Of a stretch of DNA of 64,000 nucleotides, positions 39,354 to 55,401 are shown piece by piece. Origin of the DNA: Parabacteroides gordonii MS-1 = DSM 23371 (lineage in GTDB: Bacteria > Bacteroidota > Bacteroidia > Bacteroidales > Tannerellaceae); the NCBI RefSeq assembly GCF_000969825.1, contig NZ_KQ033919.1, forward strand, positions 3,022,509 through 3,086,508. The letters are read 5' to 3'. Each line of letters begins with the position of its first letter. Within the stretch, counting starts at the first letter, position 1. Made by a program: the position numbers and the translations under genes. Below the pieces are notes generated by a model. The model made no database searches and was not told where the DNA came from. It saw nothing but the letters and a program-made list of their open reading frames with translations.

Positions 39354-41201
39354 TTAATTACGATTTTGTCGTATGTTGTTGAGCATGCTTTTAACTTCTG
39401 TTCTCATTTCCCGGATAGCTGTACTTTCCACTTTCGGTTCTTTCGTCAGTACGGCATCGGTAGCTTTGATAAACTTATCTTCCTGAAAGAAAGTCGGTTC
39501 CGCATAGAGTTTTGTTAACAGATAATACGGATAGATCCGTTCCGGTAACATATCGATTGCGTGCAGCAATAATCGTTCGGCCTCCGGGAAATTTCCCTGT
39601 GCCTGCTCATTTTTTGCCGCCATATAATGTATCATGGGATCTCCGCTTAACTTCATCGCCCGTTCCAGCAACACATTCGCATCAGTAAAGCGCTCCGCCT
39701 TGCTCAAGCACTGTGCCGTCTCGAACAGCAGTTCCGGCTTATGCCCTAGCAACGGCACCAATTCTTCATACCCGTCGCAAGCCGCTTCATAAGCCTTGTT
39801 ATTGTACAACATCTTCATCGTATTCCACTTTTTATACCCTTGATAATATCCTTTCTGCTGCCAGAAAATCCATCCGCAACAGAAGGTTAAACATCCGATC
39901 ATAGCGACCGAAAGTATCTTCCTCCCCTTTCGAGAGGGGGTAGGGGGTGTGTCACTGGCAACAGATGTACAAATCACTCCCATCAATACCACCAACACCA
40001 CCCAGAACTCCGGCAGCTGCAACGGATACGACGCCAGGCTGAATACCATCAACGCCAATATCCCCCCGGCCGCCCCGATCTGCCTGTTTTTCACCCCCCG
40101 GAACAAGGAATAACTTAACAACAATACAAAAACCATTAAACCCACCAGCCCCTGTTCCAAACCTATTTGTAAGAATTCATTAAATCCATATTCCGGACAT
40201 CCGGCCACCAGCATTTCTGTTTCCGAAGCCTTACCGGAAGAAAAATATTCTGCTTGTGCTTCGGCATAAGCCGCCGGGAAACCGCCGAGTCCGGTTCCTG
40301 TCCAGGGCTGTTTCGTTATAGCCTGTGTCGTTATTTTCCATAAAAGTAGCCGGCCATCGGCCGATTCTTTTTTCAGCATGTAAATACCTGCCAATGCACC
40401 GGCTACCAGGATCAGTATCACAAAAGATGATACTGTAGTTAAGATTCGGTGTCCATTTATAAACCGTTTCGTCTTTTCCCATCCGATACGTTGTACCCAA
40501 TAAACCCATCCGCACGACACGACCGCAGCGATCCAGGCCGCCCGGCTCATCCCTGCGGGAAGGACAATAATTATTGCCAGCAGGCTGATCCATCCCAGAT
40601 AGTACAGGTAAATATTTACTTGCCGCCATCCTGCTTTTTTATAATTATCAAATTGCAGGATCATCCATAGGCAAATGGGTAACACCATCGCAAGATACCC
40701 GGAATAAGGCCCCGGATTATAAAAATCCCCGGTCAGTCTGAACAGCGAATGGTTCGAACCTTCAAATCCATGTAACTGTCGCATCCCCGACACGGCTTCA
40801 ATCAATCCGGTTCCTGCAATCATTACCAGGAAAAAAATCTTCGACTGCGGCCATCCTGTAAATATGAACCGTAACAGGAACCATAGTATAACTAATTGTC
40901 CCCCAAACAACATTTTTTCCGGTTCGGGATTCAGTTGCCAGTTGTAAGTAAGCGCAACAATAGCTGTTAAAGCTAATACCAGCCCATCTGCCACCGAAGG
41001 AACAAATGTTTTTTCCGTCTTTATCAGAACAGTAGCCACCAGACAGCATGCTGCCAGCAGCAACATCGCCAGATGAAACCAGTAAACCTTCCCCATCACC
41101 AATCCGTTTACCAAACTGATGTCCGTGGCAAAAACGGTGCACAGCAGGAGAATTCCGCTGATAGCGAGTAGGGAGTAACTTATGTATAGTCTATATTTCA
41201 T
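39354..41201 (-). CDS. O-antigen ligase-like membrane protein with TPR tail, last gene of the peptide operon
   Basis: A 615-residue paralogue of the protein at 28119, sharing the same plan: multiple membrane helices to about residue 445, the segment GRLLLWKITTQAITKQPWTG then GTGLGGFPAAYAEAQAEYFSSGKASE, and a C-terminal TPR region (CLSKAERFTDANVLLERAMK, QGNFPEAERLLLHAIDMLPE). Its ATG overlaps the stop of the transglutaminase-like gene upstream (ATGA), so it is translated with the peptide/propeller operon. Glycan or other polymer transfer to a secreted product is a reasonable inference from the ligase fold; nothing shows the substrate. Confidence 0.77.
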   Translation of the reverse strand: MKYRLYISYSLLAISGILLLCTVFATDISLVNGLVMGKVYWFHLAMLLLAACCLVATVLIKTEKTFVPSVADGLVLALTAIVALTYNWQLNPEPEKMLFGGQLVILWFLLRFIFTGWPQSKIFFLVMIAGTGLIEAVSGMRQLHGFEGSNHSLFRLTGDFYNPGPYSGYLAMVLPICLWMILQFDNYKKAGWRQVNIYLYYLGWISLLAIIIVLPAGMSRAAWIAAVVSCGWVYWVQRIGWEKTKRFINGHRILTTVSSFVILILVAGALAGIYMLKKESADGRLLLWKITTQAITKQPWTGTGLGGFPAAYAEAQAEYFSSGKASETEMLVAGCPEYGFNEFLQIGLEQGLVGLMVFVLLLSYSLFRGVKNRQIGAAGGILALMVFSLASYPLQLPEFWVVLVVLMGVICTSVASDTPPTPSRKGRKILSVAMIGCLTFCCGWIFWQQKGYYQGYKKWNTMKMLYNNKAYEAACDGYEELVPLLGHKPELLFETAQCLSKAERFTDANVLLERAMKLSGDPMIHYMAAKNEQAQGNFPEAERLLLHAIDMLPERIYPYYLLTKLYAEPTFFQEDKFIKATDAVLTKEPKVESTAIREMRTEVKSMLNNIRQNRN

Positions 41202-43117
41202 AAATCAACTGTAAAATACTGTTTTCCATCTTTGTGAATAAAAACCTGTTCCTCTCGCCCTTTAGTCCAATCGCGTAACCATAACAATGCGTTATCAGGA
41301 ACTAGATAATTCAGTACCCTCCCGCTAGCCGTTTGCGTTCCGAGCGATTTCCAACCGTTTATCCCATCCTGATAGAAAAGCTCGTATTCGTCTCCCGGCC
41401 AAACATAATTATCATCATTGCGCGGAGAGAAAAGTATTTTTTTTACAGTTGTCGCTTTCCCCATGTCAAAAACGATCGAACAATTTGTGTCATCGGAGTA
41501 AAAATAGGTAAGAATATTTCCATCGATACAATTTTCCTGTGTACGCATGGGACTTGGTAAATCCGCAATATTCAAAGGTATAGCTTGCGTACATGCCGTA
41601 TCGCTATACATGGATATCTCAGCAATCTCGATGTGTTTGTCCAAAGGAGATACATAACGTATGTATCTATATTTTTTGTCCGGATTGTATGATTCCAATT
41701 CATTGTAATTGGTAGGTAACGTGTCATTAAATTGATACAATAATTCCGCATTAGCGAAAGACAATCGATTGGCTCCTTCAATTTTTGCTCCGATAATATT
41801 CAGATATAATCCTTCTTTGATTTTTCTGACAAGCGACATTTTTCTTTTCAATATGGCATTTTTCCGGGAAACTGTATCCGGTTCCAGATAATGTATGCCT
41901 TTCTCTGTGTAAATGAACGGATATCCTGCGGGGCTATGATTGGTTCCGTCCGAGACGAGCGGTTGGTAGATAATATCCGGCTCTATATTTAAGAATGTCA
42001 CATCTCCTTTTTTGTTTCGTGCTATGTCAATAGGAATCCATCCATCCAGACTGAAGATGCCTAAATAGATGTAAGGCTCTTTTTTATTTTGAACATGAAT
42101 GTGTACTTCATTTTCGAAATAGTCTTTTGTGACATCTTTTATAAAACGATTTCTGAACAAACCGGGTACTTTGGGGTTGGCTGTAATTCCGGGGAAACGT
42201 TCCTCCTGCATACCATAACAAAAGCGATATACTTTCCCTTTTTTCCTCCCATCCGTATTCTTCCTTTCCCGGTCGGCAACCTGTTCGTTCATCCCGAATG
42301 GGATAAATAACCCACTTGTGTCACGTAAACAATTCCATTCATGGCTTTGCTGGTATTCCGGTGAGTAGACGAAAAAGTCAGCTGTAACCGGAATGCCGCA
42401 TGATCGCATGGCATATAGTGTAATATCCGAGGCATCCCGGCAATAACCTATCCGATGATAAAAAAGAAAGTCTGCACTTTGGTGTGGTAAAGAGAAATCA
42501 GTATTCCAGATGCAGTTAGCCTGGTTCAGGTCAGCATTAATAATTTCAAAAGCTTCAAATACATCATTTCCCTGATAAGCAGAATCGAGCATTGCCGAAT
42601 AATGATCATGATATAATTTTCTCCATGACGATAACGGTTCATTACCAATTCGGTAAGGAAGAATAAGTTCGCAAAAATCATCGAAGCCCAGATGCTTGTT
42701 CCACGGATACCGTTTCCAGACATCGAAAGACAAATCGATATTCTCTATCAAATAATCGGCAGAAATAACGTGTGCATCATATATTTTCGGTAAAGAATGG
42801 AATGAAACCTTTTTCCATTTTTGTATAACCTCTTCGGCAAAGAACCCGTCTTTAGCTCCTTGCGCTAATATCGGCTGGATAGAATCCAGTTGCCACCCCT
42901 CATATCCATACCATCGCGGCATATTACGAATCAGGAAACGAGCCGCTTCCAGTTTCTCCGGATTGTTCTCATAATGTGTTAATACCTTTTCCAGTTCGCC
43001 CCGATTTTCTCCGGCAAACAGGAGGGCTTGTTCCAAACGTTTGCTATTCGACGAATTGCAAGCCACCAGAATGATGCTGATAAATATGTTTAATCCTATA
43101 ATAAATAGACTTTTCAT
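41198..43117 (-). CDS. transglutaminase-like lipoprotein with C-terminal discoidin-like domain (copy 1)
   Basis: A 639-residue lipoprotein (lipobox Cys20, ILVACNSS). Residues about 25-190 are helical. A papain-like transglutaminase core follows, with the putative catalytic Cys226 (YHRIGYCRDASD) and His259 (QSHEWN), the usual Cys-His pair. The last ~150 residues look like an F5/8 type C (discoidin-like) domain (IVFDMGKATTVKKILFSPRN). Proteins of this fold act as transglutaminases, peptidases or peptide N-glycanases. It shares its plan with the 671-residue protein at 44021 and lies between lepB and the O-antigen ligase-like gene. A role in cleaving or cross-linking an exported peptide or glycopeptide is inference. 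Confidence 0.78.
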   Translation of the reverse strand: MKSLFIIGLNIFISIILVACNSSNSKRLEQALLFAGENRGELEKVLTHYENNPEKLEAARFLIRNMPRWYGYEGWQLDSIQPILAQGAKDGFFAEEVIQKWKKVSFHSLPKIYDAHVISADYLIENIDLSFDVWKRYPWNKHLGFDDFCELILPYRIGNEPLSSWRKLYHDHYSAMLDSAYQGNDVFEAFEIINADLNQANCIWNTDFSLPHQSADFLFYHRIGYCRDASDITLYAMRSCGIPVTADFFVYSPEYQQSHEWNCLRDTSGLFIPFGMNEQVADRERKNTDGRKKGKVYRFCYGMQEERFPGITANPKVPGLFRNRFIKDVTKDYFENEVHIHVQNKKEPYIYLGIFSLDGWIPIDIARNKKGDVTFLNIEPDIIYQPLVSDGTNHSPAGYPFIYTEKGIHYLEPDTVSRKNAILKRKMSLVRKIKEGLYLNIIGAKIEGANRLSFANAELLYQFNDTLPTNYNELESYNPDKKYRYIRYVSPLDKHIEIAEISMYSDTACTQAIPLNIADLPSPMRTQENCIDGNILTYFYSDDTNCSIVFDMGKATTVKKILFSPRNDDNYVWPGDEYELFYQDGINGWKSLGTQTASGRVLNYLVPDNALLWLRDWTKGREEQVFIHKDGKQYFTVDL

Positions 43118-43127
43118 GGCTTTCGGT

Positions 43128-44027
43128 TTAATGAATTACTTTTAAAAAACGATCCCATCTGAACTTATTCGTATACGGATCAACTGATTTCCAGATAATC
43201 CAGGCTTTCCCAACAATATATTCTTCAGGCAATACCCCCCAATAGCGCGAATCCTGTGAGTTCATTCCGTTATCGCCCGCCATGAAGTAATAGTTTTTCC
43301 GGAAACGATACCCGTTGATCGGGTTCCCCTTAAGAAAGGTTGTTGAATCCTTATATTGAAGCTCTCCTTGCTGTTCCCATTCGATCAGCTTTTTATACAA
43401 CCGGTAGTTTGTCCGATCCAATGTGATGGAATCTCCTTTTCCCGGAATATAAAGAGGACCAAAGTCTTTGATATTCCAACCGATGATACTATCATAAGGA
43501 AAACTGTGAAATACTCCGTCCTGAAATTTCTCTGTAACAGCAATCTCTTTTTGTGACTCTATATTGCCAAGGGGTATTTGTACACCTTCAATATGAAAAG
43601 ATCCGTTTCGGATAGATAATGTATCGCCAGGTAACCCGATACACCGTTTGATATAATATTTGAGAATATGCATTTCAATTTTATCCCAGTTATTTGGATG
43701 GGGAAAATTGAAAACCAGAATATCATTTCGTTTGATCTTTTTGAAGCCGGGGATTCTGTAAATCTCTGTTTGCTCATTTCGCATGGAAGCAAACAGGTTG
43801 AAAATACGTGGACCGATTGCCGGTTTCCAAACCAATACATTATCTCCGGTAGTCAATTCTGCTTCCATCGAGTTGCTGGGGATTTTGAAGGAAGCTAACA
43901 AAAACACTTGTGTCATAAACCAAGCAACAGCTAGCAGGCATAACCAGAACATACCGTCTACAGCCCGATTAGTCCATGTTAGTAAATGTCTTTTTAAGTT
44001 CTTTTTATGTAAGTCTATAATTACCAC
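43128..44027 (-). CDS. lepB: signal peptidase I, operon-specific copy
   Basis: A 299-residue type I signal peptidase. One N-terminal membrane helix (about 24-47) is followed by box B with catalytic Ser53 (FKIPSNSMEAEL), box D with the catalytic Lys127 (YIKRCIGLPGD), and box E (GDNGMNSQDSRYWG). It removes signal peptides at the outer face of the inner membrane. Its ATG overlaps the end of the upstream transglutaminase-like gene by 7 bp, and the next gene begins 10 bp downstream, so it is embedded in this operon and not in a housekeeping context. This suggests a dedicated substrate, perhaps the NVEALA peptides. Confidence 0.9.
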   Translation of the reverse strand: MVIIDLHKKNLKRHLLTWTNRAVDGMFWLCLLAVAWFMTQVFLLASFKIPSNSMEAELTTGDNVLVWKPAIGPRIFNLFASMRNEQTEIYRIPGFKKIKRNDILVFNFPHPNNWDKIEMHILKYYIKRCIGLPGDTLSIRNGSFHIEGVQIPLGNIESQKEIAVTEKFQDGVFHSFPYDSIIGWNIKDFGPLYIPGKGDSITLDRTNYRLYKKLIEWEQQGELQYKDSTTFLKGNPINGYRFRKNYYFMAGDNGMNSQDSRYWGVLPEEYIVGKAWIIWKSVDPYTNKFRWDRFLKVIH

Positions 44028-46036
44028 CAGTATATCCTCCCTTTTTTATATGTAAATATTCTTTCTGCATAATAAGAATCCACTGGTTTAGTAGATTTTA
44101 TGAGATATAAAGCATCGGAAGGGATATTGTGGAAAGTGATGCATTCCTGATCTCCTTTTCCGGTTTTTTCCGGTTTCCATTCATTGTCCCAATAGTACAA
44201 TGTAAAGTTTTCATTGTTATTTACCTGTATTCCTGACTTAGGAATGATCGATATGGCAGATACTTCTATTTCTTTGCCTAAATCGAATAATATATCTCTG
44301 TCTTTTTTGTCTTTGCAATCGAAAGATCCCAAAAATCCGGTTCCGAATAGGCCATCTACGATTTTATGAAGTTCTTTGATCGAATCTTTTTTTATGTTTG
44401 CGGTTACTTTGACATTGGGTATTTCTTTTAATTGATTGTCATGTCTTTCATAGAAAGTAATTTCACTTATGGCAATGGTATTTTGTGGCAAAGCCAGACG
44501 AATCTTCCGATATTTTTTTGAGGTATGGGGCGTGATATAATTGTAGCTGACATCTATTGAATCGGTTAATGTATATAAAGTATCCAATCGTTCTTCATTG
44601 CCTGAATTATTGCATCCGATCAAATGAGCTCCGGCAAGCGTTTTTATGAATCGCGTGCTTAAAGGAGTCGTTGTATTGACTGTGATATTTTCTTTTTCAT
44701 TCCGGTTATGTTTTAGCTGTTTGTAATTACCGTCTTTATCAAGAATGAATGCCGGGGCGGCGGGTATAATAGCGTCGTTTCGGAAAAAAGCCGGTAAATA
44801 AACAATATCGCGTCCCATTCCTTTAAATGTCGCCTTTTTCTTATTTATTTTCCCCCATTGGACAGGATTCCAAGTCATATTTTGTGCATTGTAAACACAC
44901 AAATAACAATAACCGGTTTTATCAGGAATGGTTTCCGATATATCAACCGTAATGTCGGACGTTTGAAAGTATTCGGATGAGACATCCCGTATCCAAGGGT
45001 TTTTAAATAATCCGGGAATGTTGTTGTTATTTTCGCCCTTGTCACTCATAGGACCGTCCAGGTAATATTCAAACGATTTGCGGAACACTTTGGGAAGTCT
45101 GAATTTCCCTGCTCTCAAATCAAATGATTTGTTGTTGTAAAGTTTGTCATACTTCCATCTTTCGTTATCCCAAAATGGTTCGAAAGGATATGCTTTCCCA
45201 TCAACGATTAGTGTATTCCAACTGTGGCCTTCTGTCCGATTCCCCCACGTGGGTACAAAATCTATAGTGACAGCCATTCCCAAAGCAGACATAAGGTGTG
45301 CATTGAATTGGGTCTGGATATCGCATGTCCCTCTTTTAATCAGTTTATAACTGGCAATATCGCATATCGGCATGGAGGCAGCATAGCCGACACTGTTCAT
45401 GATGTCGCTATATATAAAGTGTAGTGAATCTGTAATCTCCTTGAAATCTTTCGATGTATCATTGAATATTCCGTGATGTTGGTTATAAAAAAACTCCCGG
45501 TTATTATCGAAACAAAATTTGTCACTGAAGCGATAGGGTAGGATATACTTGCAGAACTCATCAAAAGGAGCATCTTTTGTATAAGTATTTTCTTTCCATG
45601 CCTTGAACACCAGATCGATCTCTTTTATCAACCTATCGGCTTTGATGGTTTGTATATCCTGTTTGTTTGAATATTTGTATAAATCTATTTTCATCCTTTC
45701 TTCATTCCACAGTTCGTTGACCTCTTTTCGCCAGCCGTCCGGTCGTTTCCAATCGTATTTTTCAGATATGGCTACATGTTTTTTGTAAACAGGCTGTAAA
45801 ACGGGAATGATGGCAGGATCGTATCCTGTATGACCTGGCATATTCATTATAAGAAATTGGGCAGCCTTCAGTTTTAAAGTGTCATTTTTATAATGTTTCA
45901 GTACTTTTTCCAATTCATTACGGTTATCCCTGGCAAATTGTAAAGCTTGCTCCAGGCGTTTATCGTTCGGAGAAGTACATGCTGTCAAGAAAAAAGTCAA
46001 GATAAGAATAATATTTAGCGGCAATGACTGTTTCAT
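44021..46036 (-). CDS. transglutaminase-like lipoprotein (copy 2)
   Basis: A 671-residue lipoprotein (lipobox Cys20, LTACTSPN) homologous to the 639-residue protein at 41198; the first 70 residues align closely (KRLEQALQFARDNRNELEKV here, KRLEQALLFAGENRGELEKV there). The transglutaminase core contains Cys238 (KRGTCDIQTQF) and His271 (TEGHSWNT), and the C-terminal ~150 residues look discoidin-like (ILFDLGKEIEVSAISIIPKS). The duplication flanking lepB indicates two substrates or a heteromeric enzyme. It lies 28 bp after the propeller gene at 46065. Confidence 0.78.
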   Translation of the reverse strand: MKQSLPLNIILILTFFLTACTSPNDKRLEQALQFARDNRNELEKVLKHYKNDTLKLKAAQFLIMNMPGHTGYDPAIIPVLQPVYKKHVAISEKYDWKRPDGWRKEVNELWNEERMKIDLYKYSNKQDIQTIKADRLIKEIDLVFKAWKENTYTKDAPFDEFCKYILPYRFSDKFCFDNNREFFYNQHHGIFNDTSKDFKEITDSLHFIYSDIMNSVGYAASMPICDIASYKLIKRGTCDIQTQFNAHLMSALGMAVTIDFVPTWGNRTEGHSWNTLIVDGKAYPFEPFWDNERWKYDKLYNNKSFDLRAGKFRLPKVFRKSFEYYLDGPMSDKGENNNNIPGLFKNPWIRDVSSEYFQTSDITVDISETIPDKTGYCYLCVYNAQNMTWNPVQWGKINKKKATFKGMGRDIVYLPAFFRNDAIIPAAPAFILDKDGNYKQLKHNRNEKENITVNTTTPLSTRFIKTLAGAHLIGCNNSGNEERLDTLYTLTDSIDVSYNYITPHTSKKYRKIRLALPQNTIAISEITFYERHDNQLKEIPNVKVTANIKKDSIKELHKIVDGLFGTGFLGSFDCKDKKDRDILFDLGKEIEVSAISIIPKSGIQVNNNENFTLYYWDNEWKPEKTGKGDQECITFHNIPSDALYLIKSTKPVDSYYAERIFTYKKGRIYWW

Positions 46037-47707: not shown

Positions 47708-48842
47708 TGGATAATAATTTGTAGATAGCAAATTCGATAACATTTTCATCTAGAGTATTCATTTGTATCAATAATCCATCTTTAGTTACATGCATATTGT
47801 GTAAATTCAATTCCTTATAATTTTTTTGGATGGGAGTTTCAGAAATCAAGTTCCCATTGATATCCATGACTATAATTGAAAAAGGTTTAAGAAATGCTCC
47901 CCGTTCCCATCCAGTCAAAGGATGCTGGGCTATCCGATAATAAACTTTTCTATATTGGTCATACAACAGATTCGAATAAGAATGTTGACTGATGAAATAC
48001 TTTATTCTTAAATCTTTGTCTTTCATCAATTCCAGAGAATTGCAATCAGATGAATTAATCGTTGGAGTATAACGGCTTCCCATATAAAATTTCCGATATG
48101 TGGAGAAATCCGTTGAATAAGAATAAACATAATGATCGGCAGGAAAACTGTAGAGGCAATTATTGTCGTCACCCAAAGCGTGATAGATTGTGTTAAAATA
48201 AACTCCTCCGAAATCACCCTCTACATATTGATCGGGATAATTTATCCCATATATAATCTTGTTATTCGATATGTTGATATTACAACTGACTGGATGTTCT
48301 TTTTCGTCTTTCTTAAATAGTCCTAATTTGGTTCCTGACAATATGATTCTGTCTTGGAAATACAAAATGGGAGAATCTGTTAAAGCTTCCGGATCGAAAG
48401 TGTTTTTATGACTCTCTCCATTTATAACACTCCAATGTTTGATTGTTTTGAATGAAGGATCTAACATATATACCATTTTCTGTTTATAATTATACACAAA
48501 AGTGGTGTCTCCTTTGCAAAGGAATCCAGAATAATTATTCAGATTACCACAATTATTTATTTTGTTTGTTCGTAATAATTCGTTTGTCTTTACATCAAAC
48601 CAATGTAACGTATTTTCATCCAGTATAACATAAAATATATTTCCTTTCTCGTTTTCTACAAATTGTGAAACTAATGGCTTAGGTATTAAATGGTCTCCTA
48701 TCTGTATTTTTATTGTTGAGTCCTGTCGGCAAAACAATGTTGAATCAGCAGCAACAGTTCCTTCATTTTTTACCTGAATAATTTTTTTTTCACAAGAATT
48801 GAAGAACAATAAAGATAGTAACAATATTGCAACTTTTTTCAT
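47697..48842 (-). CDS. DUF4221-like lipoprotein propeller, partner of peptide 1
   Basis: A 381-residue lipoprotein (lipobox Cys17, FFNSCEKK). Strand-rich repeats such as NENTLHWF-like DENTLHWFDVKTNELL and DDNNCLYSFPADHYVYSYS match DUF4221/TolB-like propellers that are common in Bacteroidales. It follows the peptide gene at 48947 by about 100 bp, with a hairpin in the gap, and overlaps the next gene by 11 bp. The pairing peptide then propeller occurs three times in this locus, pointing to a physical peptide-receptor or carrier relation. Confidence 0.72.
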   Translation of the reverse strand: MKKVAILLLSLLFFNSCEKKIIQVKNEGTVAADSTLFCRQDSTIKIQIGDHLIPKPLVSQFVENEKGNIFYVILDENTLHWFDVKTNELLRTNKINNCGNLNNYSGFLCKGDTTFVYNYKQKMVYMLDPSFKTIKHWSVINGESHKNTFDPEALTDSPILYFQDRIILSGTKLGLFKKDEKEHPVSCNINISNNKIIYGINYPDQYVEGDFGGVYFNTIYHALGDDNNCLYSFPADHYVYSYSTDFSTYRKFYMGSRYTPTINSSDCNSLELMKDKDLRIKYFISQHSYSNLLYDQYRKVYYRIAQHPLTGWERGAFLKPFSIIVMDINGNLISETPIQKNYKELNLHNMHVTKDGLLIQMNTLDENVIEFAIYKLLSNEK

Positions 48843-48946: not shown

Positions 48947-49189
48947 TTATTGTTCACAATCCGTTAGTGCTGGCCAAGAATCTGATTTGCAGAAATAGGT
49001 CCCAGCATCATTCTTAACACAATTACCATCATTATCCCACCAGCCAATACTTTCACATGCAGCCATTGACTCTATGTCTGTGGATATAAGGCTAATATTA
49101 TTTTTATTATTTTGACTTTGGCTGAAACTCCAGCTTGCTGCAACAGCCATAGCAGCGATAATAGCTACCCCGAAGATTTTTTTCTTCAT
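48947..49189 (-). CDS. NVEALA-type exported peptide 1 (four cysteines after the motif)
   Basis: An 80-residue peptide precursor. Residues 1-24 form a hydrophobic leader (MKKKIFGVAIIAAMAVAASW then SFSQ) very similar to that of peptide 2. A degenerate NVEALA motif (DIESMA, 38-43) precedes a 37-residue C-terminal part with four cysteines, able to form two disulfides, and several Trp residues. NVEALA proteins are a Bacteroidetes family of unknown function. It heads the operon that includes a propeller, thioredoxin-like protein, second propeller, transglutaminase-like proteins and signal peptidase. Confidence 0.75.
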   Translation of the reverse strand: MKKKIFGVAIIAAMAVAASWSFSQSQNNKNNISLISTDIESMAACESIGWWDNDGNCVKNDAGTYFCKSDSWPALTDCEQ

Positions 49190-49229
49190 GTTCTTTTTCT
49201 TTTATTGAATTATAAGTTAGTTTATTTTT

Positions 49230-49237
49230 TACCTTTG
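49230..49237 (+). promoter_or_regulatory. promoter -7 box of candidate sRNA 1
   Basis: TACCTTTG on the plus strand is followed by GCCTACT, which is shared with the box at 51757. It points away from the peptide gene. Confidence 0.5.
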
Positions 49238-49243
49238 CCTACT

Positions 49244-49405
49244 CTTATTCAGTTTAGATATTCGAAAGATACAAGTATCAGTTGATACCGATATCATTCT
49301 GGTTGTTGATCTTAAATGATTTTGATATACCTCCTTTCCTTTTTAGGAGAGCAGTCGGGGAGTTTGCCGTAACAGTTGTCAACCTATAGGCAGACTCCCT
49401 TTTGT
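49244..49405 (+). ncRNA. candidate small RNA 1, divergent from peptide 1
   Basis: About 160 nt from the likely start after the box at 49230 to an intrinsic terminator: GGGAGTTTGCC (49358-49368) with GGCAGACTCCC (49389-49399) and TTTTGTTC. The same layout and the same words (GCCTACT, TTAGATA, ACCTCCTTT, GGGAGTTTGC, CTCCCTTTTGTTC) occur at 51771-51906 upstream of peptide 2. Between these blocks the two differ. No ORF is conserved. It covers the promoter/leader region of the minus-strand peptide gene, so it may be antisense to that leader. Confidence 0.55.
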
Positions 49406-49438
49406 TCTTTGAACTTACCTCTCCTGTTTGTGATCCTC

Positions 49439-49524: not shown

Positions 49525-50286
49525 TTATTCAATTACGGGACGGTCGTCTTCCCCTTCTTCTCCCTTGTTGGTACCAACGTACACAATACGGCTGACACTG
49601 CGCGCCGTTTTCAGGATACGCTGAGTATTCCCGGAGTATTGTGTTGTCAGCGTCATTTCATATTCTCCGTCAGCCAGGCCCGTCGGAGCAATGAATATCA
49701 GTTCCGAAGGATTGTTTGTGCCGAACATGTCGGGAGTAACTTTCGTCACCGCGTCGTCTGTCAGGCTGCGGAAGGAGATGCCGACATTTTCATCTGTTCC
49801 CTCGATACGGATGCGCGAACCGGTGATGCGGAAGTTACGTCCCGGCGTGATATGTCCGTCTTTTACGTTGTTACTGCAATCCTGAACGCCGGTGATATAA
49901 ATAGCGTCGGCTTTTTCGCCCAGGATTTCAACTTTGGTGTTTCGTATCTCTTCACGCAGGACGCGGTTTTGAGTGAATGAAACATAGATGTCGTTTTTTG
50001 CCGGATTCCATTGTCCTTCTTCGATCGGCCCGATGAAGCGGGGAACGGCGTAGAACAATCCGGTGTTGACATTGTGTCCGTTCATCAAAGCACGTGCCAC
50101 GATGCGTTCGTAGAGAGTTACTACGTGAACGAGTGTTTCCCGACGCAAACCGGTATCTTCTTCGCGCATGTCTTCGTAGAGTTGTTCGTTATCTACTGTG
50201 CCGGCGGAGTTAAGAACTAAAATACGATCGTTCGTGTCTTCTGTCAGTGTGTTAGGGGCTAACCAGCCTTGGAGTTTGTTGCTCAT
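49525..50286 (-). CDS. HU-like DNA-binding domain protein with DUF4469
   Basis: A 253-residue cytoplasmic protein. Residues 1-125 resemble the HU-DNA-binding domain family found in Bacteroidales (DRILVLNSAGTVDNEQLYED, TLVHVVTLYERIVARALMNG, GLFYAVPRFIGPIEEGQW), and about 130-230 match DUF4469, an Ig-like domain (ITGSRIRIEGTDENVGISF). It ends in GEEGEDDRPVIE. A degraded HU-like gene at 55852 ends in almost the same residues. It interrupts the peptide/propeller genes but is in the same direction. Role unknown: nucleoid or scaffold protein are possible. Confidence 0.78.
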   Translation of the reverse strand: MSNKLQGWLAPNTLTEDTNDRILVLNSAGTVDNEQLYEDMREEDTGLRRETLVHVVTLYERIVARALMNGHNVNTGLFYAVPRFIGPIEEGQWNPAKNDIYVSFTQNRVLREEIRNTKVEILGEKADAIYITGVQDCSNNVKDGHITPGRNFRITGSRIRIEGTDENVGISFRSLTDDAVTKVTPDMFGTNNPSELIFIAPTGLADGEYEMTLTTQYSGNTQRILKTARSVSRIVYVGTNKGEEGEDDRPVIE

Positions 50287-50340
50287 GGTGTTAAATTGTT
50301 TATTGTTTTTAAATGTAATTTCTTTTTTTGCTAAATGAAA

Positions 50341-51396
50341 TCAGAGAACTTTCGATAAGTTGAAAGAATATAGGCAGAAATCTTTTTCCCATCCTATTGC
50401 AATTAATTCTTTATCATCATCTGTTATACAAATGTTAAATAGTTTTTTATCGGAAAATAGTCTACATACACACTCTCCGTTCCAATTGTATATAAGAATA
50501 TTATTACTTAGCATAGCATCCATCATTCCTTCATTATTGTGTTGCGCTAATTTTTTTCCAGAATATAAAGTATAGATGTATTTGTCGGTTGCATATATAT
50601 CTGTATAACCAATAACATTTTCTTGTCCGTGTTTAATGCTATTAATCCCAGGACTACTGTCGTTTATATATATAGGATATATATCGTGATAACTTTTTAT
50701 AAGATTAGGAGTTGCGTTTACTTGATATAATTCAAATATGGCTCCCGATGATGTTACTGATGCAAACCTATCTAATAATGGATTATAAACTATCCAACCT
50801 TGATAAGCAAGTGTTTTACTTTTAATTCCAGATTCATTTCCATCTTTAGGAAAGCCCCCAAAAGATTTTATAAATTCCCCTTCATTGTTTAATATTGCAT
50901 ATCTATTATTATCATTTTCATTTTTATCCAAAAGACCTGAAACTATATATCCATATTTTGTTTGTATTATCGAAAGAGGCATACATTTCAATTTTGTTAT
51001 ATCTGAAATGTTTTTTGATAAATCTTTTGTTACTATTTGTTTTTTTTGCAAATCGAATATGTTAATGCTTGACTTATCTTTCTTCTGCATTAAACGTGGC
51101 ATAATACTCTCATCTGGTCCTTCTCCTAGTTGTGCAAATGATTGAAGGCTATCTTTTGTATAATAAATTTTATCTAAAAGAGATTGCCCTAAGTAGTTCT
51201 CTTTAATTATACATTGATGATCTTCAAATGGAATCATCCTACCAAAAGAATTTAATTTGTAAGTATTGACATTGAGTTTTTTAGCCTTTATATTAAATGC
51301 ATGTTTAAAATGATTTTTTGGATCAGTTTCTTTATGTTCACACGATAAAAGAAACATAAAGAATAGGATGACTATTAAAATATCATTGATTTTCAT
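50341..51396 (-). CDS. TolB-like lipoprotein propeller (BF3164 type), partner of peptide 2
   Basis: A 351-residue lipoprotein (lipobox Cys19, FLLSCEHK) with strand repeats such as KSSINIFDLQKKQIVTKDLS, GEFIKSFGGFPKDG, KYIYTLYSGKKLAQHN and NILIYNWNGECVCRLFSDKK, matching the TolB-like six-blade propellers of Bacteroidales. It follows the peptide gene at 51478 by about 80 bp with a hairpin in the gap. It is the same length as the propeller at 52802, to which it is related. The AT-rich composition is stronger than in the neighbouring core genes. Confidence 0.75.
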   Translation of the reverse strand: MKINDILIVILFFMFLLSCEHKETDPKNHFKHAFNIKAKKLNVNTYKLNSFGRMIPFEDHQCIIKENYLGQSLLDKIYYTKDSLQSFAQLGEGPDESIMPRLMQKKDKSSINIFDLQKKQIVTKDLSKNISDITKLKCMPLSIIQTKYGYIVSGLLDKNENDNNRYAILNNEGEFIKSFGGFPKDGNESGIKSKTLAYQGWIVYNPLLDRFASVTSSGAIFELYQVNATPNLIKSYHDIYPIYINDSSPGINSIKHGQENVIGYTDIYATDKYIYTLYSGKKLAQHNNEGMMDAMLSNNILIYNWNGECVCRLFSDKKLFNICITDDDKELIAIGWEKDFCLYSFNLSKVL

Positions 51397-51411
51397 ATAT
51401 ATTGTATTAGT

Positions 51412-51443: not shown

Positions 51444-51477
51444 AATTGAAGTAATAATAATTTAATCAGGATAATTA

Positions 51478-51702
51478 TTATTTGTATCCAGGTATAATAG
51501 TATGACCTAAATCATCATTAATTTCGTAGCACGTTGCAGTTGATATAATGCAAGGTACTCCTACTTCGATTTCGTATCTAGCCAACGCTTCCACATTAGC
51601 CAGTGCCAAGTCTGACAGTTCCACCTCGTTTTGACTCAGGCCGTAATTCCAGCCTGCTGCTGCGATAGCTGCTATAGCAATGATACCAAATAACTTTTTC
51701 AT
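51478..51702 (-). CDS. NVEALA exported peptide 2
   Basis: A 74-residue precursor. Hydrophobic leader (MKKLFGIIAIAAIAAAGWNY then GLSQ) followed by an acidic linker and the exact NVEALA motif at residues 36-41. The 33 residues after it contain two cysteines eight positions apart (VPCIISTATCYE), able to form one disulfide. Leader similarity with peptide 1 shows common origin. Upstream is the second candidate small RNA. The ending ALA fits the small-x-small rule of signal peptidase I, but the motif also could be a recognition site for another enzyme. Confidence 0.85.
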   Translation of the reverse strand: MKKLFGIIAIAAIAAAGWNYGLSQNEVELSDLALANVEALARYEIEVGVPCIISTATCYEINDDLGHTIIPGYK

Positions 51703-51756
51703 ATTCGTATCTGTTTAATTGTTTATTTTAAAACTTTATTTGATCGGGTTATTTTC

Positions 51757-51764
51757 TATCTTTG
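51757..51764 (+). promoter_or_regulatory. promoter -7 box of candidate sRNA 2
   Basis: TATCTTTG followed by GCCTACT, as at 49230. Points away from the peptide gene. Confidence 0.5.
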
Positions 51765-51770
51765 CCTACT

Positions 51771-51906
51771 GTTTTTCAGATTAGATAGCCGAATGGCACC
51801 TGTACCATTTTGTTCTGTCGGTTATATTACCATCATACACCTCCTTTTCGGGGTCCCTGGGAGTTTGCTTGTACAATTTTGAGGTCGTGCAGCAAACTCC
51901 CTTTTG
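51771..51906 (+). ncRNA. candidate small RNA 2, divergent from peptide 2
   Basis: About 135 nt from the start after the box at 51757 to an intrinsic terminator: GGGAGTTTGCT (51859-51869) with AGCAAACTCCC (51891-51901), perfect 11 bp, then TTTTG. Shares ordered blocks with sRNA 1 at 49244. The terminator points in plus direction, away from the peptide gene and into the 3' end of the DUF1573 gene, so it is not the terminator of that minus-strand gene. Confidence 0.55.
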
Positions 51907-51911
51907 TTCGA

Positions 51912-52793
51912 TCACCGAACATTCCCCTTTATCCTACCCTTGATAGGTTGGTTGTTAATACTATTGTACTTGATCGTTACGACTTCATCGAAAAATCCTG
52001 TGTCTTTCGGTGTCATCTTAATTCCTACTCGGAGAGTTTCTCCGGATTTTGCTGGTCGTTTATCATAGGTGGCTGCTGTACAGCCGCAGGTGGTACTTAC
52101 GTCCACTATTACGAGAGGATTGTCCCCGGTGTTTTTTATTTCGAAGGTAGCCTCTTTTATTTCTGATTTGTCGAATGTGCCGAAGTCTATCTCTGTTTGT
52201 ATAGCTTCAGCAGTTGTTTTCAACATATTTTTAGTCTGACTTTCTTTTCCGGTTATTTGTTTTAGATAGAGGTCTTTTATGGCTGTGTTGTGTACCGGAT
52301 TTCCTAAAGCTGCTACTTTATTATTTTTGTCTAGCAAGAAAGTTTGGAAAGTCATATCAGCCGGGAACTTGTTCAGTTTGTTCAGCCGATCGTCCATATC
52401 GATACACACAGGGCGGTCAAAGCCATCACGTTTCAGCAAATAACGTATTTCTTTGTAATCCTTTGAGTGGAAGAAAAAGAGGAAAGGAATTTTCCCTTGT
52501 GTTACGGAATCTGTATATTCAATCAGTTCTTTCCACTTAGGTAGTTGTAGTTTACAGCTGGTGCAGCCGATAGAGTCTACATATATCAATACCTTATATT
52601 CCGAATTTGGAATCTGATAGTCAGTTGTATCTGTCAGATAACGTGTGAAGGTTATGCTTTCTGGAAACACAATTTGTTTCCCTTGCCATTCGTTGACAAG
52701 TTGTACAATCCGTGTTTCCTTTTCTTTCTGTTCATTTTTACAGGAGAAGAAGATCGGTAATAATACTAGTATGATCAGATTTAAAGTTTTCAT
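51912..52793 (-). CDS. lipoprotein with thioredoxin-like and DUF1573 domains
   Basis: A 293-residue lipoprotein (lipobox Cys18, IFFSCKNE). Residues about 40-180 form a thioredoxin-like domain with Cys77-x-x-Cys80 (DSIGCTSCKLQ), then PFLFFFHSKDY and TFQTFLLDKNNKVAAL. Residues about 195-293 are a DUF1573 domain with FEIKNTGDNPLVIVDVSTTC and CGCTAATY. This pairing is common in Bacteroidetes. It lies 8 bp after the propeller gene at 52802. Likely a periplasmic or surface redox protein for the disulfide peptides of the locus (inference). Confidence 0.82.
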   Translation of the reverse strand: MKTLNLIILVLLPIFFSCKNEQKEKETRIVQLVNEWQGKQIVFPESITFTRYLTDTTDYQIPNSEYKVLIYVDSIGCTSCKLQLPKWKELIEYTDSVTQGKIPFLFFFHSKDYKEIRYLLKRDGFDRPVCIDMDDRLNKLNKFPADMTFQTFLLDKNNKVAALGNPVHNTAIKDLYLKQITGKESQTKNMLKTTAEAIQTEIDFGTFDKSEIKEATFEIKNTGDNPLVIVDVSTTCGCTAATYDKRPAKSGETLRVGIKMTPKDTGFFDEVVTIKYNSINNQPIKGRIKGNVR

Positions 52794-52801
52794 CTTGTTC
52801 T

Positions 52802-53857
52802 TTAAATTTTGAATTCTATAATTGGATCATCGCTTTTCACTTCGGTTGCGACGATCGTATTCGTTTCTTCGTTTATGTCGATGCCGTATATAGCATGATC
52901 AAGGGTGTATTTGCAAACCGGGTTCCCTTGCAGGTCGAAAACGTAGATGAATCTTCCTCCGTCTTCCGGCCGTTCTCCACGCTGATAGGTGGCTAGCTTG
53001 TCTTTGAATTTAATACCCTGAAATACAGCGTAGATATGTTTGTTTGTTACTTTTATGTCACTAAACCCCATAATTCCGCTAGGTATACCCGAACCGTCTT
53101 TACCCGTTTGAAACTCAGGTTCTCCTGCCGGACCATACAGGACTTTATGTGTATTGTCATTTAAGTTATAAATTTCGATTGTTTCTCCTAACTGGGTAGC
53201 CATAGCTAAGACACCATTGTCGGGATTATAGTCCATAAAACTTCGCCATGCCTGTGCCAATGCCGGGCGTGATGTCTCTTTATTGACAATTTCACTAGGG
53301 ATTGTACCATTACTTTTGGTCGCTTTACCATTCTTGTTTACTTCCCAAAAACGATGCTCTCCCATATAGTCAGGAATCAAAAAGCCCGATTCCATCGTGC
53401 GAAAGTCTAAAGAACGGACAAGTTTTTTGTCTAGTTTAATCTCCTCTACCCGTTCCGCAGAACCGGTAGAAGGAGATATTTTCCAGCGGGTAATCTCCAT
53501 CTTATTGGGATCGAGAGCCCATAAAGAATCTAAGGAGTTAAATTGAATGTTCGCTGCTGATAGCATCTCCTCCGGGGCTTCTCCACGTCTGCCGAATGAA
53601 GCAATATGTTTCCACGCCGGATAGGTAAACGCATGTAAATAATGATCTATATTATGCAGATCCATTACAACGGCAATACTATCTCTGACCGTTACCCGGA
53701 ATGGATAACGGAACAGGATAGTATCCAGGTTGATAACCTGTGCACTGAGCGCCTTGGTTTCGGTAAAGTCTGAGTATCTCGGGAAGTGCGAATCCGGAGA
53801 GCTCGTGCAGGCGCCCAGGCAGCTAATACCTATTAATATATATAGGAGATGCTTCAT
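52802..53857 (-). CDS. TolB-like lipoprotein propeller, partner of peptide 3
   Basis: A 351-residue lipoprotein (lipobox Cys17, CLGACTSS). Blades such as HIASFGRRGEAPEEMLSAAN, GETIEIYNLNDNTHKVLYGP, KHIYAVFQGIKFKD and RFIYVFDLQGNPVCKYTLDH are typical of TolB-like propellers. It begins 3 bp after the peptide gene at 53861, the tightest of the three peptide-propeller pairs, and is followed by the DUF1573 gene. Related C-terminal fragments of such a gene are found at 56105 and 57722. Confidence 0.8.
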   Translation of the reverse strand: MKHLLYILIGISCLGACTSSPDSHFPRYSDFTETKALSAQVINLDTILFRYPFRVTVRDSIAVVMDLHNIDHYLHAFTYPAWKHIASFGRRGEAPEEMLSAANIQFNSLDSLWALDPNKMEITRWKISPSTGSAERVEEIKLDKKLVRSLDFRTMESGFLIPDYMGEHRFWEVNKNGKATKSNGTIPSEIVNKETSRPALAQAWRSFMDYNPDNGVLAMATQLGETIEIYNLNDNTHKVLYGPAGEPEFQTGKDGSGIPSGIMGFSDIKVTNKHIYAVFQGIKFKDKLATYQRGERPEDGGRFIYVFDLQGNPVCKYTLDHAIYGIDINEETNTIVATEVKSDDPIIEFKI

Positions 53858-53860
53858 TGT

Positions 53861-54082
53861 TTATTCGAGGCTTAATCCTTCAATTCTCATTTCGACCCAA
53901 TCTCCGTCACAGTCTACAGAGCCATCGCCATAACATTTGGCTCCATCTCCATGTTCACCGTAAGCCAATGCTTCCACATTTTCTAATAATAGAGACGGTA
54001 AATCGTTTTTTGGGGTGGACCCAAAATAACAACCAGCGATCAGGCAAGTTACAAATCCTACTAATTTTAGTTTTTTCTCCAT
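53861..54082 (-). CDS. NVEALA exported peptide 3
   Basis: A 73-residue precursor from the ATG at 54082; a longer reading from 54109 would start inside the -7 box, so it is rejected. A short hydrophobic leader (LKLVGFVTCLIAGCYFG) contains LIAGC, which could act as a lipobox. The exact NVEALA motif is at residues 35-40. The 33-residue C-terminal part is acidic and has two cysteines eight positions apart (AKCYGDGSVDCDGD), the same spacing as in peptide 2. It is the first gene after the divergent promoter shared with the regulator at 54250. Confidence 0.83.
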   Translation of the reverse strand: MEKKLKLVGFVTCLIAGCYFGSTPKNDLPSLLLENVEALAYGEHGDGAKCYGDGSVDCDGDWVEMRIEGLSLE

Positions 54083-54106
54083 ATTTGTATTACGTGTTTG
54101 TTGATG

Positions 54107-54114
54107 CAAAAATA
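54107..54114 (-). promoter_or_regulatory. promoter -7 box for the peptide 3 operon
   Basis: TATTTTTG on the minus strand matches TAnnTTTG; start about 20 nt before the peptide ATG. Confidence 0.55.
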
Positions 54115-54134
54115 GAGAGTCTTTTTCGGATGAA

Positions 54135-54178
54135 CTCCTATAATTCTCTTATAAATCTCCTATATTATGCTTATAAAG
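54135..54178. promoter_or_regulatory. two direct 22-bp repeats in the divergent promoter, likely operator
   Basis: Units at 54135-54156 and 54157-54178 both begin CTCCTATA and contain CTTATAAA at the same place (17 of 22 bases identical). The near unit ends 20 bp from the peptide -7 box, where an activator would sit at the -33 region. Direct repeats two helical turns apart fit winged-helix (OmpR/PhoB-type) dimers, and such a protein is encoded by the divergent gene. Confidence 0.6.
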
Positions 54179-54221
54179 GCATTTATTTATTCGTTTTATC
54201 TCTTTTTGAACGGTTCTTTTC

Positions 54222-54229
54222 TATTTTTG
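54222..54229 (+). promoter_or_regulatory. promoter -7 box for the membrane regulator
   Basis: TATTTTTG on the plus strand, identical to the divergent box at 54107. Transcription start would be about 15 nt before the ATG at 54250. Confidence 0.5.
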
Positions 54230-54249
54230 CAGTCAAATAGAATGTGAAA

Positions 54250-55401
54250 ATGAAGAATGGTTCATTATATGGGTTAATGGGGATTTTTGTGGTTTGGCTT
54301 ATCTTTATAAGTGGAGGATATTGGTATTCTTGTAGTTTGCGAACCCAAGTGACTGAAATCTGGAAGCAGACTTTATGGGAAGATCGCACGAACAGGATGA
54401 GAGAAGCCAAAGTAAAGACGAAATATATATTTGTTCCGACAGCTTCCCCTGATATTAAAATAATAACTGAAGGTCAGACTTTGCATTTTAAAAAGGATAG
54501 TATTAAACCTTATACTCCTGATGAAAGAGATTTTCTGGCTGATCAGCAGTATTTGTCACTCAAGAACCCTGTAAAACTGGAAAAGTTGGATAGTCTTTTT
54601 CAGTTAAAGTTGAGAGGGAATGGGCTGGAGTATAAAACGGCAGTATCACTTTATAATAATGATACAGATAAAAAGACATTTTACGGCCAAGAGGATGTGA
54701 AAGTCTTACATGATTACTTGAAGTTGACATACAAAGTAGATATTCAGGATATTATTCTTTTGGAAGGATATGTTAAGGGTGGTTGGATAGAAAACTTGGT
54801 GTGGGGGACATCTTATTATATTGTGTTGTCTATAGCCCTTGTGATTTTGGGAATATTGATAGTAAAAAGAAGACAGAACAATAAGTCTTCAAAATATCCG
54901 GATCAATTTGTTTCTGAAAATGAACAGCCCATGGAAACAGAGCTGGTTTTACCTGTTGAACCTGTTGGGCAAAAGGTAGAACTGCTAACAGAACCTGAGA
55001 CAGAACTTGTGGCAGAACCTGAGGTAGAATCGTTGGAGGAATCATTGGAGTTGCCTTTGCTACCAATTGATAATGTTGTTCGGTATGACGAAAGACTATG
55101 TTCTTTGATGTATGGTGATCAAACGATACAACTTGCTCCTAGAGTCTTTGAGTTGTTTTATTCTTTGTTGCAGGGAAAAGACCTTTTTCAATCGTATGAA
55201 TCTCTCTATCAAACTCTTGGGGATGGAGATGTTGATGCCGATAAAAAAACAGTGGAACAGTTAGTGTTTCGTTTGCGGAAAGATTTGAACCAGGCTATCC
55301 CCGTTTTGAGTATTGAAACTATACGGGCTAAAGGATACCAAATCAAGGGAAAGGATGAGATGGAAATACGAATAGAACGGATAGAGGATAAAGAAGTGTA
55401 G
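54250..55401 (+). CDS. membrane-anchored regulator with periplasmic sensor and C-terminal winged helix
   Basis: About 383 residues from the ATG at 54250 (a GTG two codons upstream is possible). One membrane helix near residues 6-27 (LYGLMGIFVVWLIFISGG), a periplasmic domain of about 150 residues, a second helix near 190-210 (YYIVLSIALVILGILIV), an acidic linker with a repeated EPE/ELVAEPEVE pattern, then a winged-helix DNA-binding domain of the Trans_reg_C type (about 275-370: LAPRVFELFYSLLQGKDLF, VEQLVFRLRKDLNQ, ETIRAKGYQIKG). No kinase or receiver domain. It faces the peptide operon across a shared promoter region with 22-bp direct repeats, so it probably controls it in response to a periplasmic signal. 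Confidence 0.8.
   Translation: MKNGSLYGLMGIFVVWLIFISGGYWYSCSLRTQVTEIWKQTLWEDRTNRMREAKVKTKYIFVPTASPDIKIITEGQTLHFKKDSIKPYTPDERDFLADQQYLSLKNPVKLEKLDSLFQLKLRGNGLEYKTAVSLYNNDTDKKTFYGQEDVKVLHDYLKLTYKVDIQDIILLEGYVKGGWIENLVWGTSYYIVLSIALVILGILIVKRRQNNKSSKYPDQFVSENEQPMETELVLPVEPVGQKVELLTEPETELVAEPEVESLEESLELPLLPIDNVVRYDERLCSLMYGDQTIQLAPRVFELFYSLLQGKDLFQSYESLYQTLGDGDVDADKKTVEQLVFRLRKDLNQAIPVLSIETIRAKGYQIKGKDEMEIRIERIEDKEV

Follow-up and report, generated by a model that had tools for sequence, protein, structure and literature searches.

What do three small NVEALA-type peptide genes do in a dense run of envelope lipoprotein and enzyme genes, and do their neighbours belong with them? The question is raised by a locus in a 64,000-nucleotide (nt) stretch of the Parabacteroides gordonii MS-1 = DSM 23371 genome (contig NZ_KQ033919.1, positions 3,022,509 to 3,086,508; "the window", numbered from its first letter). 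A first-pass annotation had proposed that the genes between 39354 and 55401 form a peptide maturation and sensing system. Its underlying observation, a conserved multi-gene system, is real and was understated. The peptides, which had been treated as equivalent, fall into two classes: nvA, which lies beside a divergent membrane regulator (REG) and downstream of direct repeats, and nvB, which lies beside a divergent RNA element. Our preferred reading, held tentatively and with slightly less than even confidence, is that this is an apparently undescribed, self-contained exported-peptide system of gut-type Bacteroidales in which REG senses nvA and drives a maturation and export operon, with nvB peptides as variable cargo.

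The gene content described in the first-pass annotation was borne out almost throughout. All three peptides are members of the NVEALA family (PF14055; gathering score 27): nvA (53861..54082, 73 residues, 41.9 bits), nvB1 (51478..51702, 74 residues, 39.4 bits) and nvB2 (48947..49189, 80 residues, 27.7 bits), all on the minus strand. They are the only PF14055 matches with E<=0.001 in the whole 6.79-Mb genome. The NVEALA-type motif ascribed to each holds by score, but that of nvB2 is degenerate (DIESMA). As claimed, a propeller lipoprotein of 351-381 residues follows each peptide on the same strand: a 6-bladed TolB_like protein after nvA (52802..53857, PF15869 286 bits), a second TolB_like protein after nvB1 (50341..51396, 75.1 bits) and a DUF4221 protein after nvB2 (47697..48842, PF13970 70.3 bits; PDB relative 3s9j). 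REG (54244..55401, plus strand; Trans_reg_C, 38.5 bits) is the divergent membrane winged-helix regulator that had been recognized. Reading away from it along the minus strand, the order is nvA, its propeller, a CxxC-DUF1573 lipoprotein, nvB1, its propeller, an HU/DUF4469 gene, nvB2, its propeller, a CIGC lipoprotein, a DUF5128 propeller, a transglutaminase (TG)-like lipoprotein, signal peptidase (SPase) I, a second TG-like lipoprotein and a Wzy_C (O-antigen ligase-like) protein.

This arrangement recurs. PF14055 matches were found in 58/118 genomes of the window's family, often as tandem arrays, and in 17/295 genomes sampled across the order, three of the 17 (the window's genome included) being from the window's family. 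Gene maps of 40 NVEALA-anchored loci, fetched around PF14055 matches, show a common plan in which REG diverges from the first peptide and is accompanied by a propeller, DUF1573, peptide-propeller cassettes, TG-like proteins, SPase and Wzy_C; the plan is not complete everywhere, and some loci are without some parts. A propeller was the next same-strand gene for 84 of 103 NVEALA genes, as opposed to 14 of 75 at position +7, and REG was the divergent neighbor of 31/104 peptides, mostly the first of an array. With a REG profile, 68 matches of at least 100 bits were tabulated, and 45 of these had a divergent NVEALA gene within 3 kb as judged from a partial NVEALA list. Of the 23 misses, L035 and L021 do have such a gene in the gene maps, and one was also present in the sequences of L047, L056 and L057; the others have no NVEALA gene or lie at a contig end. 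NVEALA matches were present in 33/37 REG-positive and 25/81 REG-negative genomes (p=1.9e-9). The REG-positive genomes without a match were G010, G112, G035 and G030, the last of which has a peptide by a custom profile.

The processing enzymes follow the same distribution. In a control set of 20 genomes, 14 with and 6 without a PF14055 match, the SPase subfamily of the system was present in 14/14 and 0/6, respectively, and was well separated from other SPases (430-536 bits vs. <=135); TG-like proteins above 190 bits and Wzy_C proteins above 185 bits were each found in 14/14 and 0/6. An independent sample of named genomes was anchored on SPase instead, using the best 80 of 583 confirmed candidates with flanks of up to 10 kb and some short contigs. 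Here 27 system SPases (at least 240 bits) were set against 51 lower-scoring, mostly housekeeping SPases; L090 (221 bits) was placed among the controls despite system-like genes, and L065 and L136, which gave no SPase open reading frame (ORF), belong to neither group. NVEALA genes lay near 16/27 system SPases and 0/51 controls, with corresponding counts of 19 vs. 2 for propellers, 16 vs. 1 for TG-like proteins, 22 vs. 2 for Wzy_C, 12 vs. 2 for DUF1573, 3 vs. 0 for REG and 19 vs. 3 for an efflux pump. Co-occurrence of the peptides with propellers, CxxC/DUF1573 proteins and the winged-helix regulator is thus clearly positive, and extends to SPase I, TG-like and Wzy_C proteins.

Several carriers deserve mention in their own right. 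Phocaeicola vulgatus ATCC 8482, a commensal, is among them, its locus (L073) lying at ~82-103 kb of NC_009614.1. The highest number of NVEALA matches in the 118 family genomes, 24, was found in G092, a genome of 2.5 Mb. The locus L085 of Prevotella aff. ruminicola Tc2-24 holds seven NVEALA-type peptide ORFs, mostly with NVEALS, the last five of which are consecutive with no labelled gene between them.

Peptide features were examined in 146 unique precursors, each having a recognisable motif and at least 18 residues of mature sequence; 19/165 precursors were left out, 17 for motif or length and 2 with identical mature parts. The number of cysteines in the mature part was even in 133/146, odd in 13/146 and zero in none. 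Glutamate occupied position +3 past the motif in 139/146, in part through selection, as the motif search favoured glutamate at +2 to +4. Two cysteines were present in 28/31 REG-adjacent peptides, and a CX7C pattern, C...[GP].[VIL].C, which is also that of the two-cysteine nvA, matched 29/31 of these vs. 5/77 other peptides (3 of the 5 class A-like by eye), a descriptive contrast, as the pattern was composed after viewing the sequences and a first pattern had matched 0/31. By eye, and as a check on this contrast, it also occurs in 7/7 REG-divergent peptides obtained later, three of them (from L060, L061 and L063) in loci that seem to be almost the same as ones already included. These REG-adjacent peptides constitute class A, to which nvA belongs.

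Class B, which includes nvB1 and nvB2, combines a constant leader with a variable mature part. Between class B paralogues within a locus, median identity was 0.72 for leaders vs. 0.16 for mature parts, and the leader was the more similar in 68/70 pairs. The mature parts have no common overall sequence, and no constant acceptor residue was seen by eye in the peptides listed. Where class B peptides are similar across genomes (16 pairs above 0.45 similarity), their partner propellers have a median similarity of 0.825, compared with 0.01 overall. Class B peptide and propeller are thus inherited together as a cassette. For nvB1, G049 (L010) holds a close relative whose propeller is similar as well. 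For class A, peptide and propeller similarities correlated at 0.79, with 3/500 shuffles as high and near-duplicates retained. Eight peptides scanned against NCBIfam matched no family above cut-off, AimP, DsbE and others all falling below it. The possibility that nvA is a lipoprotein was considered and dropped; by eye, some leaders are lipobox-like and others lack cysteine.

REG is predicted to consist of a first transmembrane segment (TM1), a periplasmic alpha/beta domain, TM2 and a cytoplasmic C-terminal winged helix of the OmpR/PhoB type. In an AlphaFold model (mean pLDDT, the per-residue confidence, 75.1; predicted template-modelling score 0.47), helices 6-54 and 190-214 flank the alpha/beta domain and the winged helix occupies residues 278-379 with a pLDDT of ~90. 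The best Foldseek matches were DNA-binding domains of SaeR, PhoB, ToxR and CadC (best E 1.1e-3). The periplasmic domain was covered by none of the PDB sequence matches listed, and the Foldseek list for the whole model was filled by winged helices.

The REG-nvA intergenic region contains four direct repeats of the TATArGAG type with an 11-bp period (54135..54175, minus strand). They resemble PhoB boxes and end ~20 bp before TATTTTTG (54107..54114, minus strand), a -7-like element of nvA of the Bacteroides type; occurrences of this pattern by itself do not exceed chance in the window (59, against 50 expected), and scans for Sigma-70 promoters and terminators gave chance-level results. For the window repeats p=0.005, the floor of 200 shuffles, with 3 overlapping matches vs. 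0.18 expected. Within the genome the exact double repeat is unique to this region, and matches with two mismatches elsewhere are no commoner than a control (16 vs. 32). In a survey of 34 non-redundant REG-nvA intergenics (of 40) at lags 7-19, lag-11 repeats had p<0.05 in 11/34 (the window and 10/33 others) and p<0.01 in 7/34, vs. at most 4 and 2, respectively, for any of the other twelve lags. The letters of the repeats vary across loci and the 11-bp period is constant. These repeats are a putative REG binding site, and their varying letters at a fixed period would fit a PhoB-like regulator that has drifted together with its site.

The mature nvA peptide varies with the periplasmic domain of REG rather than with its DNA-binding domain. 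The nvA mature part correlated with the REG periplasmic domain at r 0.472 over 29 loci and, in partial Mantel tests, whose significance is inflated by relatedness among loci, at partial r=0.354 (p=0.002) given the winged helix, the TolB_like partner and the leader. A first run over 34 loci had given 0.47 and a partial value of 0.383; with DUF1573 as control, the value was 0.391 (25 loci, p=0.001). The 29-locus run took any propeller within 2.5 kb as partner. When the immediately following propeller was used instead, the partial correlation was 0.350 (p=0.002, 19 loci), and harder de-replication gave 0.274 (p=0.022, 13 loci). Given the periplasmic domain, nvA showed no significant correlation with the winged helix in any of the three sets (0.07, p=0.26; -0.115; -0.111). 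The correlation of mature nvA with TolB was 0.216 with the loose partner and 0.424 with the immediate propeller. As a control for linkage we used the nvA leader, which is physically nearer to REG; over 29 loci its correlation with the sensor was 0.086 and not significant. The claim that the leader carries no signal was later overturned by the stricter sets, and the main covariation result held. Covariation with the periplasmic rather than the DNA-binding domain favours nvA as a partner of REG, perhaps in a trio with TolB.

The nvB genes are distinguished by a different upstream feature. Both in the window have paralogous elements upstream on the opposite strand: element 1 (51751..51919, plus), with a -7-like TATCTTTG at 51757-51764 and a predicted 3′-end hairpin and T-run, and element 2 (49224..49422, plus), with TACCTTTG at 49230-49237. 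A DNA profile seeded from these elements identified 38 places in the loci. The pattern TAnnTTTG-N2..8-RCCTCCTT, written after the elements had been viewed, gave 30 matches in 2.32 Mb, and for 30/30 a divergent NVEALA gene lies no more than 300 nt away; the counts for four control 8-mers were 0, 0, 1 and 3. The window copies fall outside this pattern, their TAnnTTTG lying 83 and 100 nt upstream. Among 25 aligned copies, the element strand had the more stable predicted fold in 24, with 113 vs. 28 G-U pairs; relative to dinucleotide shuffles its mean z was -3.50, compared with -2.61 for the opposite strand, and its value was the lower of the two in 21/25 copies (p=1.6e-4). Strand was judged from these single-sequence folds, as an RNAalifold consensus on the A7 alignment gave only 4 pairs, the alignment failing to register the stems. 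Transcription of the element is thus most likely directed away from nvB, with the hairpin and T-run at the end of the transcript.

A covariance model (R1), scored on the best 150 candidates per genome in the 20 control genomes, gave 38 matches with E<=0.01, in 12/14 NVEALA-positive and 0/6 NVEALA-negative genomes. In the window's genome it found just the two nvB sites (51839-51919 and 49329-49422). Of the 38, the matches in G084 and G077 are marginal and lie a long way from the listed NVEALA genes, and several better-scoring matches lack a detected peptide neighbor. Over 41 sources there were 50 matches, 25 of which had trained the model; in 45, a peptide gene starts divergently no more than 450 nt away (median 127). 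R1 lay upstream of 43/75 class B genes vs. 2/36 class A genes, and inspection by eye suggests that these two are misclassified. Matches without a listed NVEALA gene alongside (G060:C2:539845, G063:C77:14705 in L020, G024:C2:510694 and G002:C5:4314801) are possibly cassettes that have lost their peptide. The strongly folded element is ~90 nt long, and its start resembles the 16S rRNA 3′ end of the window's genome (AACACCTCCTTTCT); an exact 8-mer or longer is common to element start and 16S tail in 45/50 copies, a 10-mer in 28/50 and a 13-mer in 4/50. No known Rfam family was found in 46000-55600.

The remaining genes described here, all on the minus strand, encode further lipoproteins and candidate processing enzymes. 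The CxxC lipoproteins listed in the first-pass annotation are a protein with CTSC (Trx-like) and DUF1573 (51912..52793, PF07610 83.8 bits), whose CxxC is kept in 41/41 homologues of at least 240 residues, and the CIGC protein (47234..47749), thioredoxin-like by eye and without a Pfam match. A fourth 6-bladed propeller lipoprotein (46065..47237, DUF5128/DUF4934, PF17170 76.2 bits) follows. The first TG-like lipoprotein (44021..46036) has a helical N-terminus, a predicted TG-fold core and a carbohydrate-binding-like C-terminus. Both it and the second (41198..43117) have a TG-type cysteine and histidine, C238 and H271 in the first, invariant in 21/21 homologues, and neither matches a Pfam TG family. 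Foldseek aligned the core with 3isr/TglA (probability 1.00 over 116 columns), a weak fold match with E ~0.01, the top three rows being low-probability pilin matches. The SPase I (43128..44027, PF10502 Peptidase_S26 108.8 bits) has intact box sequences, and S53 and K127, assigned as the catalytic pair by the SPase I box sequences, are invariant in 15/15 homologues. The Wzy_C membrane protein (39354..41201, PF04932) scores 60.9 bits against a cut-off of 31.7 and has a C-terminal region resembling tetratricopeptide repeats, matches to which are below cut-off. Full-length TG-like genes also occur far from any listed NVEALA match (G002:C5:4314946, G003:C2:1181834, G033:C138:56760), so the TG-like family is not confined to the arrays.

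Our preferred reading assembles these parts as follows. NVEALA precursors would enter the inner membrane through the Sec pathway by their hydrophobic N-terminus, and the dedicated SPase I would cut after N(V/I)EALA, an A-x-A site. A CxxC lipoprotein may then make or isomerise disulfides in the peptides. REG is proposed to bind the 11-bp repeats just upstream of nvA and turn the operon on, with nvA as the cognate partner of its periplasmic domain, perhaps together with the TolB-like propeller; partnered in this way, nvA would allow the system to monitor or amplify its own output. The nvB peptides would be variable cargo, each most likely bound by its cassette propeller as receptor, carrier or immunity protein, and many nvB genes would additionally be gated by the divergent structured RNA. 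At the envelope, the mature peptides or the proteins partnering them may be the targets of the TG-like lipoproteins and Wzy_C. Of the maturation and sensing system originally proposed, the sensing part has gained from the repeats and the nvA-sensor covariation, whereas cleavage, disulfides, export and signalling stand as proposals.

A number of observations weigh against this reading. Gene linkage, the peptide classes, even cysteine numbers, repeats, covariation and the RNA element are what was seen, and the biochemical steps are what we infer. The motif ends ~25 residues past the hydrophobic core (quartiles 22-25), far for an ordinary SPase I, and Q stands at +1 in just 27/146 mature parts, whereas the Bacteroidetes Q-rule expects it. 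Over all class B pairs the peptide-propeller correlation is weak (rho 0.05; 24/500 within-genome partner shuffles as high). There are 25 NVEALA-positive genomes without a REG match of 100 bits; the lag-11 repeats reach 0.05 in just the 11 intergenics given above; and R1 was not found in 2/14 NVEALA-positive genomes (G090, G033) or at 32/75 nvB genes. Besides the inflated significance of the partial Mantel tests, the nvA leader correlates with the REG sensor in the two stricter sets, at raw values of 0.291 and 0.322; conditioning on winged helix and TolB leaves 0.112, not significant, and 0.21, p=0.048. Some of the signal is therefore due to linked inheritance. The sensor covaries with TolB too, the values conditioned on winged helix and nvA being 0.212, 0.183 and 0.312.

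Three other explanations would account for much of the same data. The nvB peptides could be toxins directed at neighbouring cells, with the partner propellers as immunity proteins and REG and nvA as the producer's switch. Such a bacteriocin-like arrangement would fit a variable, cysteine-rich mature part behind a constant leader, a lipoprotein cassette with most peptides, arrays that differ between relatives and patchy presence (the 58/118 family genomes), but the cluster proteins scanned include no bacteriocin transporter or immunity family, the eight NCBIfam-scanned peptides fell below every cut-off and the three window propellers that follow peptides are large for immunity proteins; we regard it as unlikely, though well worth keeping in view. 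Joint travel of SPase, Wzy_C and a TG-like protein with a conserved C-H pair and carbohydrate-binding-like C-terminus could instead point to envelope assembly, in which the peptides serve as subunits or anchors: SPase I would process them, the TG-like proteins would cross-link them and Wzy_C would join them to glycan, with REG sensing assembly status. The lack of a common overall sequence or a by-eye constant acceptor residue among class B mature peptides argues against this, and we consider it improbable.

Alternatively, the parts may be together by position only, in a genomic island at a hot spot beside a core resistance-nodulation-division (RND) pump and without joint function. The pump occurs in 5/6 NVEALA-negative genomes and the system often lies beside it, and the modest leader-REG covariation in the stricter sets is what mere linkage would give. 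Against this, where a genome has two arrays, as do G060, G049 and G066, two of its SPases are array-linked and it has at least two Wzy_C genes; the presence of SPase, TG-like and Wzy_C proteins tracks that of NVEALA in 20/20 genomes; and the link between mature nvA and the REG sensor persists once the leader is removed. An island of this sort seems very unlikely. The preferred reading of a sensed nvA and variable nvB cargo may be extended to a new class of Bacteroidales peptide communication or effector system, in which a constant CX7C peptide is sensed at the membrane by its own winged-helix regulator, a private SPase releases a rapidly changing set of disulfide peptides, each paired with a propeller of its own as receptor or immunity protein, and the variable peptides are gated by a divergent small RNA beginning with a near-copy of the anti-Shine-Dalgarno (anti-SD) tail; in this fuller form we consider it possible but doubtful.

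How do these elements compare with known systems? The Pfam entry for PF14055 gives a name alone, and none of the papers searched was found to describe the peptide classes, the gene system or the RNA element. Neither "NVEALA" nor "DUF4221" was found in the literature searched, in which full-text coverage excludes most subscription papers, and searches by component and by function returned no description of such a system among the matches listed. The architecture appears categorically new, with the caution that its function may still prove bacteriocin-like. ToxR and CadC have an N-terminal winged helix and a single TM. REG differs from them in its two TMs and C-terminal winged helix, and in that it adjoins and covaries with a peptide gene; of the ToxR-type hallmarks, a winged helix, a TM and a periplasmic domain are predicted in REG, and the N-terminal helix and single TM are not. 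As described in the available portion of PMC10269533, ToxR, TcpP and CadC are, like REG, one-component, membrane-bound regulators with an OmpR/PhoB-type winged helix. Bacteroidetocins and other double-glycine (GG)-leader peptides with peptidase-containing ATP-binding cassette transporters (PCATs), in the part of PMC10352776 available, share with the NVEALA peptides small size, occurrence in Bacteroidales and a conserved leader with a variable core. NVEALA precursors differ in a hydrophobic, Sec-type N-terminus with no GG motif by eye, and no PCAT or C39-peptidase transporter domain was found in the cluster proteins scanned.

The SPase resembles that of the Bacteroidetes SPase I pathway with its Q-rule, so far as the accessible text of PMC5837995 and PMC10653852 describes it, in being an SPase I with intact S/K and box sequences; it differs in belonging to a distinct subfamily with a proposed ALA|xGE site and in the low frequency of Q at +1. 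According to the sections of PMC9976891 at hand, Bacteroidia ribosomes hide the 16S 3′ tail from Shine-Dalgarno (SD) sequences. The nvB RNA element has in common with the anti-SD/SD regulation described there a start resembling this tail, but differs in being a small RNA element of its own, associated with nvB genes. In rows for B. thetaiotaomicron VPI-5482 seen in the iron-stimulon paper PMC10434189, BT0662 is annotated as O-antigen ligase, BT0663 as hypothetical and BT0664 as a 6-bladed propeller; further separate rows give BT0667 as SPase I and BT0669 as RND adaptor (p ~0.1 to 0.44 for the five). By annotation alone, BT0662-BT0669 match the order Wzy_C-peptide-propeller-SPase-RND, and it is likely, judging from these rows, that this laboratory strain carries the system.

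The preferred reading would supply a function-sized hypothesis for several uncharacterised Pfam families at once (NVEALA, TolB_like, DUF4221, DUF5128 and DUF1573). If nvA is indeed the ligand of REG, Bacteroidales would have a one-component system that senses a peptide. The nvB peptides would form a large unread pool of gut-bacterial disulfide peptides, and the RNA element would be a link of a new kind between a small RNA and the anti-SD tail, which this phylum keeps hidden. If nvB is instead a toxin with an immunity protein, the locus would be a new variant of bacteriocin systems.

The same-strand gene run extends past 39354 down to 28119, all on the minus strand. It comprises a membrane fusion protein (MFP, 38193-39272), an RND protein (35107-38187) and an outer-membrane efflux protein (33598-35085), which together form the linked pump, then a second RND (30218-33454) and a second Wzy_C (28119-29948). 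The pump was rejected as a dedicated exporter because its MFP subfamily occurs in 5/6 NVEALA-negative genomes, although it is linked at 19/27 vs. 3/51 SPase loci; it is probably a conserved neighbor only, with linkage that may be positional. A similar spacing of a Wzy_C gene beyond MFP is seen in 5 other genomes (G014, G049, G063, G066 and G090). Within the array, the HU-DNA_bdg/DUF4469 gene (49525..50286, minus strand; assigned by Pfam) is not a regular part, being labelled in 2 other loci (L024, L025). On the other side of REG, a short ORF at 55852-56070 shares the GGEDDRPVIE tail of this gene and is a probable remnant, and an AlbA/Schlafen-type gene with NEGI repeats and a tyrosine integrase adjoin the system at 56281-58812.

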